This document shows positions 37,101 through 40,100 of a DNA stretch of 41,714 nucleotides, in pieces. Source of the stretch: Ectocarpus siliculosus (Eukaryota; Sar; Phaeophyceae; Ectocarpales; Ectocarpaceae); NCBI GenBank assembly GCA_000310025.1, contig FN649740.1, positions 2,028,277-2,069,990 on the forward strand, given 5' to 3'. A model generated the notes under the pieces. That model was not told where the DNA came from and ran no database searches. It worked only from the letters and a program-made list of their open reading frames with translations. Position numbers and translations under genes: made by a program. Numbering within the stretch: position 1 is the first letter of the stretch; each line of letters starts with the position of its first letter.

Positions 37101-40100
37101 CAGCCAAGTACTAAAAATCAAAACCCAGCACCTTTCCCATGCACACGAGAGTACGCCCTACCCCGATGCACACCAACCGGCCTTGATACTATTGTCGTGA
37201 TTGACGGCGACCCCATAGCTGTTGTGTGTAAAGGTAGTGCATAGGGTTCGAGAAGGATACCAACGCTTGGGTTAACGAAGGGGGTTTGATTCGGAAGCGT
37301 CAAGCGGCGCATCATTCTCGGAAGGCCTCCGCACCACAACCACAACCCCCGCAGCAGAACCTTCCCAGAACGTTCTTGTTCTTCCGACAGCAGCAGACTA
37401 GCCAATCTCCCGTTCTGGACACCGATACGCCGCTGTTCGTCCCCCAAGCCACTCTCGTCCCATCCGTGTGGATCTTATCTTTATCTGACAGATGGAGAAG
37501 TGCTACATCATCAACGCGCCCTGGGTGTTCTACGCGTTGTGGAAGGGACTGCAGCCGTTGATGTCGGCGGGCACAGCAAAGAAAGTGCAGGTGCGAAGAT
37601 GGTGTTTGTTATTACGCTCTTCTCCGTAGACAAACGAGCGCAGCATATTGTAGGGGGCTGTTTTTCGTGTGTCTTATTTTCAGGGTACACCTCGGTACTA
37701 GTTTTTTAGGCGGATCCAGGCGGGGCGGTACGTCAATGTGGCGGTACTTTTTTGGCGGTTGGCGGTATTTCGTTTTCCGGCGGTACCGCCTTTGGCGGTT
37801 CCCGGTACTGCCAATAATGGCGGTACTTTTTTGGCGGTACGTCAATATGGCGTTTTTTTTTAGGCGGTTCCCGGTACTGCCAAATACGGCGGTATTTTTC
37901 TGACGGTACTGAAATATGGCGGTACCGCCTTCGGCGGTTCCCGGTACTGCCAAATATGGCGGTATTTTTCTGGCGGTACTGAAATATGGCGGTACCGTCT
38001 TCGGCGGTTCCCGGTACTGCCAAATATGGCGGTTTTTTGGTGGCGGTACTGAAATATGGCGGCACCGCCTTCGAGGGTTGCGAGTAGACCAGAATATCAA
38101 AATATAAAATATGGCGATGCCAAACTACATTTCGGTGCCCTTGGCGCCCCATCAACCGGCGAACCTCTTTCCTCTCTTTCAGGATGGGTCTTTCTTTGTC
38201 TCTTGTATGTACGCTTGAGAGCCTGCATCTCCCATATGATTTCGTGATTTCACGATGCGATGCATACCCATGGTCAAATCGAGCTGTTCATGGACAAACG
38301 AAAGGCAACCAAAAGAAGAAAGAAAATGCAAAAAGAGAAGAGCGCGCCAAAACGCGATCCGTCGAATGCCACGGGTGTGTTCGAACAGCTGACGATCGGC
38401 GACAGATGAAAGAGGTTCCGCCGAAAAGGAACAAGGCAGAACCAAAAAAATAAATAAATATATATATGTATGACGAAAGAGAAAAAGAAAAAAGAATAAA
38501 TGTGAACAAAGACGCACGCCAGTTGGACTCGAACCACTGTTCTGCGCGAGACATGGCGTTGGAGATAGTGCCCTATGCTACTTTAGAGGGCAAAACTGAA
38601 GTATGGCGGTACCATTTTGGCGGTACTGCAGTACGGCGGTATTTTTTCGGCGGTACTGCAATATGGCGGTTCTCTTTTGGCGGTTCCCGGTACTTCGTTT
38701 TTTGGCGGTACCATTTTGGCGGTACTGCAGTACGGCGGTACTTTTTCGGCGGTACTGCAATATGGCGGTTCTTTTTAGGCGGTTCCCGGTACTTCGTTTT
38801 TTGGCGGTACTTTTTCGGCGGTACTGCAATGTGGCGGTACTTTTTAGGCGGTCGGCGGTTTTTCGTTTTTCGGCGGTACCGCCTTCGGCGGTTCCCGGTA
38901 CCACCGAATGTGGCGGTAATTCCCGCCAGTACCGGGACCGTCCACCACGGCGGGAAAAAAACGGCGGGAATTTTCCCGAGGTGTACCCTGCTTATTTTCT
39001 TTGTTTTGGGTCAGCGGTGCGTGCGACGTGCGGTGTTTTCGGGGCGGGACTGCTGTGCAACAGTATGGAAGGAAGCTGCGAGGTGTTGTCAGGGAGCTGC
39101 GGTAGGTAGACCACGCCGCTCTTGTACCGTTTGCCGGGAGACTTGGTCGCGAAAGATGTTCACGAAGCCAACGCGAGTAGCTGCTTATGCTCGGACTCTC
39201 CAAGCCTTGCTGCTGACGCAGCTACTGGTTCGCGAGCCACTGCTGTTCGCTGTTTCTGCTGCTGCCACAAGCAACTTCGATTGCGTTCGGAATTGTTTCA
39301 CAAGGTGCTACTACTGCTTGCGCCGCCCACCCCGCGCGCTCTTTTGCCACGAACAAAAAAAAAAAAAAGATGCTCAAGTACGACGTCCTTTCTTGTCTGA
39401 GCGAGACGATATCGTTGGAGCGACTGCCGACGAGCGCGGGGGGAGCGTGCGACCCCGACATGGCGACCACGGAGCAAATGCACGATTTCGTCGTGTGCGG
39501 CCGAGTGGCGAAGCTTCCTGGGGGGGACGGGGCGGCGTCATCTGAGGGGGGGAGCGGGGCGAGCGTGGATGACTCCGAGCAAGAAGAGGAGGAGGAGGAA
39601 GGCGACCGGCTGTTTGGAGAGCAGCGGCGCCGGGGGAAGGGAGCAGCGGGAGGTCTTGCGGGTGGTGGGGGTGGTGGAAGGAGTAGCCGTCGTGGGAGCA
39701 CCCGGCGGAACAGCGGCAGCAGCGGCGCCGGGGACCGCACCGCCGCCGCCGGTAGCGGCAAGAACCACATCACCTTCAGGAGCCTGTTCGAGCGACTGCA
39801 GGCTAGGGACGATCCCCGCGAGCTCACCGCCGCCGCTGCTACCGCCGGTGGTCCCCAGCGGCGGCGACTGGGGTCCTCGCCGTCCATCTCTCGAGCCACG
39901 TCGTTCCACAGCCACGCCTCGTCGTTCTATTCCCCGCCCCTGTCGAGGCACGGCAGCAACGCCAGCGCCTCAGGCCACGGCGACGGCGGGGGCAGCCGGC
40001 GTCAAGACCCGCGGCTGTCGCCGGGAAGGCCGTTCGCCTCGCCGGGGCCCCGGGGTATCCGACGGTCCAACACGGGGGGGGTAGAGGTCGGGGCCGGCGG

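Follow-up and report, generated by a model that had tools for sequence, protein, structure and literature searches.

The element and its host intron

The window, a stretch of 41,714 bp from contig FN649740.1 of Ectocarpus siliculosus, contains a 1,310-bp element at 37681–38990 whose 15-bp inverted ends are perfect (100% complementary), as established both by reading the sequence and by a scan for inverted pairs. The octamer CTTATTTT abuts it on both sides as a perfect 8-bp repeat. The size, the termini and the duplication given in the earlier note are thus correct to the base. CAGGG stands at both ends and fits a short terminal inverted repeat (TIR) of the form YARNG, which is the form taken by hAT ends. 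The boundary features are as follows.

37673–37680, no strand: left target-site duplication CTTATTTT, by direct reading; identical to 38991–38998
37681–37695, plus strand: left TIR CAGGGTACACCTCGG, from the inverted-pair scan; 83 exact genome copies against 0 for the control
38976–38990, minus strand: right TIR, from the inverted-pair scan
38991–38998, no strand: right target-site duplication CTTATTTT, by direct reading

Exons encoding a CRAL-TRIO (Sec14-like) domain appear to lie on either side of the element. A query hand-joined from two exon pieces upstream and one downstream of it matches CRAL_TRIO (PF00650, E 4.7e-21, residues 8–101 of 107) across the position of the insertion, in agreement with the Sec14-like host gene that had been claimed. 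With its boundaries judged by eye, the host intron extends from about 37591 to about 39369, and the insertion makes up roughly three quarters of it. Rfam returned nothing at the gathering score for the window.

A family of copies with the same ends

The 15-bp end occurs exactly 83 times in the 189-Mb genome, and the same word reversed, used as a control, does not occur at all; with one mismatch allowed, the counts are 127 and 8. As a DNA query the element gave at least 68 genome matches (the best 40 of 177 candidates were scored), and among these, seven, including the window itself, align over 1,310–1,326 bases of the 1,326-base query at 96–100% identity. We fetched 58 loci (L001–L058) and tabulated 43 end-bounded copies, namely the window copy and 42 of these loci, the remainder being without a second recognisable end or having been fetched for other reasons. 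Genomic copies therefore do end at these TIRs, the point on which the earlier note had been prepared to see its reading fail. The TIR plus five bases, sought in viral contigs, gave 0 matches.

The 8-mers abutting the 43 copies are identical on the two sides in 21 cases, differ by one mismatch in 7 and by two or more in 15, whereas the left 8-mer of one copy is identical to the right 8-mer of another in 6 of 1,806 control pairings. Duplicated octamers are 86% A+T, as against 50% in the flanks. When the perfect duplications are oriented, 19 of 21 begin with a purine and 18 of 21 end with a pyrimidine, the bases between being A or T, so that the pattern is roughly RWWWWWWY. In seven of the 43 copies (L004, L008, L009, L011, L013, L024 and L028), one to three extra bases lie between TIR and duplication on one or both sides, and it is only with these bases allowed that their duplications match at seven of eight positions or better; the extra bases perhaps reflect imprecise cleavage of the ends. 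Twelve copies of 298–522 bp belong to the same family. The window copy, at 1,310 bp, lies outside the classical definition of a MITE (under about 600 bp, with high copy number).

To look for empty sites, we built queries for 20 of the 21 perfect copies, each consisting of the two flanks fused at a single octamer, and ran them against the genome; the best 40 of 948 candidates were scored. Within that set, the L007 flank matched 20 listed sites end to end at 94–96% and the L022 flank 20 at 96–99%; both insertions lie within high-copy repeats. In all ten uninterrupted sites that were read, five per flank, the octamer (TAAAATAC and GATTTTTC) is single and without a gap, and 83–85 of 88 columns are identical. 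L007 shares its deletion form with the window copy, and the two differ by 1.0%. The empty site with a single octamer that the earlier note called for is thus found for two sister copies, while for the window insertion's own flank no match was listed among the best 40 of 948 candidates.

A coding relative and the internal deletion

A longer member of the family, L037 (5,286 bp), lies on FN649740.1 as well, about 0.64 Mb from the window copy. The TIR recurs at its ends with two mismatches or in shifted form, and L037 also has a duplication matching at seven of eight positions and the same subterminal arrays. Its frame 3602–4384 matches the hAT C-terminal dimerisation domain (PF05699, 24.1 bits; cut-off 21.4), and for the family this evidence comes from the single copy with a broken gene. 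A BED-like zinc finger scores 15.1 bits, under its cut-off of 20.6. Homology to an open hAT frame in another locus, L043, jumps from frame 2 to frame 1 and back to frame 2; for the DDE/RNase H core, homology to another hAT protein covers the later part only, and the N-terminal catalytic half was not found in L037. A PDB sequence search with the C-terminal piece returned no significant hAT transposase, its five hits being weak and unrelated chains (best E 0.011). The L037 transposase gene is broken.

The hAT label, which the earlier note had based solely on CAGGG at the termini and an 8-bp duplication, is strengthened by L037, since a copy with the same ends and arrays carries PF05699, and since its gene sits exactly in the stretch absent from the window copy. 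The two are collinear in four blocks separated by three gaps, the second of which (L037 4540–2279) spans the whole gene.

37681–38265, plus strand: left block, matching L037 5565–4987 at its far end, 89.8% identity
38262–38375, plus strand: block aligned to L037 4677–4540, 74.6% over 138 columns
38373–38375, no strand: putative deletion joint, where two alignments meet; L037 2280–4539, transposase gene included, is missing
38373–38466, plus strand: block aligned to L037 2279–2183, just upstream of the gene, with a single GTTCGAAC at 38379–38386
38469–38990, plus strand: right block, aligned to L037 835–280, 78.5%
38525–38535, minus strand: tRNA-like B-box word GGTTCGAGTCC, by direct reading; present in L037 too

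The L037 4677–4540 segment lies just 3' of the transposase stop codon (about 4387). Because the second gap removes the whole transposase gene, the window copy is an internal deletion of the Ds type, in which both ends of the coding relative are kept and the gene between them is absent. None of eight reading frames of the element, some of which extend beyond it, reached the cut-off of a Pfam family, which bears out the statement that no transposase lies inside. The B-box word, of the pol III kind, is perfect both in the window and at 769–779 of L037; a tRNA gene at this position was considered and dropped, as ARAGORN called no tRNA in the window or in seven loci, and GGTTCGAGTCC stays a word.

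Several deletion forms exist. Mean divergence is 1.5% for the 1.2–1.3-kb form (10 copies), 2.7% for a second form, class B (8), and 6.5% for a form of 300–414 bp (11). Since the ten copies of the window's form share its deletion and are on average only 1.5% apart, the deleted form itself must have multiplied. Class A copies retain the stretch just after the transposase stop, and the eight class B copies retain L037 2266–2519, presumed to be the first part of the gene; in class B and in L001 this stretch, which precedes the zinc-finger-like part, is continuous with family sequence.

Subterminal arrays and comparison with known elements

The hexamer GGCGGT occurs 38 times on the plus strand of the element and 4 times on the minus strand. 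Of the forward motifs, 18 lie in the first 400 bp and 20 in the last 400 bp; elsewhere in the window the density is 0.45 per kb.

37724–38047, plus strand: left subterminal array, 18 of the 38 forward GGCGGT (starts 37724–38042), by motif count
38605–38917, plus strand: right subterminal array, 20 forward GGCGGT (starts 38605–38912), by motif count

Copies of 298–414 bp have 11–16 forward and 2–4 reverse GGCGGT. By analogy with Ac and Hermes, these motifs are putative transposase binding sites. In maize Ac, according to PMC3260210, subterminal hexamers bind the transposase. Ac/Ds as described there (Ds-del, Ds2/Ds1) resembles our family in its described features: the duplications are 8 bp long, the TIRs are short, a longer element has given rise to internal deletion derivatives, some forms are only about 400 bp long, and subterminal hexamers are many. 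The TIR is 15 bp here and 11 bp in Ac/Ds, and the hexamer is GGCGGT (38 forward, 4 reverse) rather than AAACGG (PMC3260210). Unlike in Ac/Ds, the motifs here occupy two stretches of some 320 bp each, and no intact autonomous partner was found. Hermes of the house fly, as described in PMC10368747, is likewise a hAT element with many subterminal repeats at its two ends, asymmetric in orientation and bound by BED zinc fingers; its motif is AAGT rather than GGCGGT, and binding in our family is proposed only by extension. The copies of 298–414 bp may also be compared with hAT MITEs such as Mar of Drosophila (PMC3517528), likewise short hAT derivatives that lack a gene; host and sequence differ, and the likeness is one of description, not of sequence comparison. 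Four hAT families are listed in the Ectocarpus transposon paper PMC12477816. Without a claim that it is unpublished, ours is presumably a new family of a well-known kind, and the element is an ordinary Ds-like hAT derivative.

Origin, mobilisation and alternative explanations

We consider it very probable that the element is a non-autonomous hAT member that arose by internal deletion of an L037-like element and was mobilised in trans into the intron. A longer element of this type would have lost internal DNA, the whole transposase gene included, with both ends kept. A hAT transposase supplied by another copy would then bind the 15-bp TIR and, most likely, the GGCGGT arrays too, excise the element and paste it into an AT-rich octamer of the intron by presumed cut-and-paste chemistry; the staggered cut would duplicate the octamer, leaving CTTATTTT on both sides.

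Movement in trans by a related autonomous element, as proposed in the earlier note, is the part of this scheme that we infer with good support, while the relative itself was not found intact. In a protein search with the L037 piece, only L037 itself exceeded 41% identity among the 15 listed matches, and none of the 41 matches to its gene region at the DNA level was a second full copy. L039, L040 and L041 contain decayed or distant pieces, those in L040 and L039 being decayed sections of the 3' region; the frames submitted from these three loci showed no hAT domain in Pfam. Other long copies were tried as autonomous candidates and rejected: L002 (4.9 kb) has a gene of another kind (DDE_1, PF03184, E 5.9e-29), and the frames submitted from L001 and L003 gave no Pfam family over cut-off. 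An intact autonomous element of the family was thus not found in the assembly, and L037, alone among the copies in having a recognisable hAT domain, is broken, so that the partner may have been lost, may be unassembled, may persist in other strains or may belong to another hAT family.

The last of these, in which the mobilising transposase would come from a second hAT family of this genome and not from the family's own autonomous member, seems to us unlikely, if worth serious thought. It would accommodate both the lack of an intact own-family gene in the protein and DNA searches and the youth of the deleted copies (1.5%), and there are PF05699 matches with long open frames elsewhere (664 and 682 aa). 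However, the nearest other hAT proteins are only 34–41% identical to the L037 C-terminal piece (among the 15 listed), and two of the loci that encode them, L043 and L044, have neither an end within three mismatches of the TIR nor a convincing TIR pair with an octamer duplication. Somewhat less likely again is a more particular version, an orphaned hAT family, possibly served by the enzyme of another, whose recognition would depend on the unusually long one-way GGCGGT arrays, running in the same direction at both ends, rather than on mirror-image ends. That the family belongs to another cut-and-paste superfamily altogether (P, Merlin, MULE or KDZ/Zisupton), with the hAT gene of L037 as a separate nested insertion, we regard as highly improbable. 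Octamer duplications are not unique to hAT, and 8-bp or near-8-bp duplications occur outside it; moreover, the RWWWWWWY pattern is not tied to a published hAT pattern, and the hAT domain is known from one broken copy. Against this, family sequence runs into the gene from both sides, in class B and L001 before it and in class A after its stop, and a scan of L037 for YARNG TIR pairs with 8-bp repeats returned the outer pair only. Finally, tandem repeats of 30/70/99 bp abound in the element, and a chance arrangement of such repeats in the intron might merely resemble a transposon; this explanation, to which we give practically no weight, is refuted by the copies that the same ends bound at many unrelated sites, with their octamer duplications and empty sites.

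Internal deletion of an L037-like element followed by mobilisation in trans leaves what is known of hAT elements unchanged. The gain for this genome is a hAT family documented in detail, with empty sites verified and several deletion forms recognised. Its young insertions, which lie in introns and repeats, would serve as presence/absence markers and as a test case for the number of subterminal sites that a hAT transposase needs.

Nested and composite copies

Three kinds of more complex copy were seen. Frame 2607–3671 of L002 (C13) is a pogo/Tigger-like DDE_1 transposase gene inside a family copy that has a perfect octamer duplication; the gene is probably part of a nested element. Composite copies (L011, L015 and L024, and also L030 and L034) hold a further internal TIR. 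L015 and L024 share the junction ttattttgtt before the inner TIR and are composites at different places, and such copies give the impression that a double-ended unit was transposed as a whole. Lastly, all eight class B copies (L010, L018, L020, L021, L023, L025, L027 and L031) contain a nested second hAT-like element of 303–343 bp, with the ends CAGCGCTTTAAATA and TATTTAAAGCGCTG at no more than one mismatch. It is flanked by GTTCGAAC, identical on both sides in six of the eight and with one mismatch in the other two; the same octamer is present once in the window copy and in 8 of 10 class A copies, which represent the empty site of the nested element.
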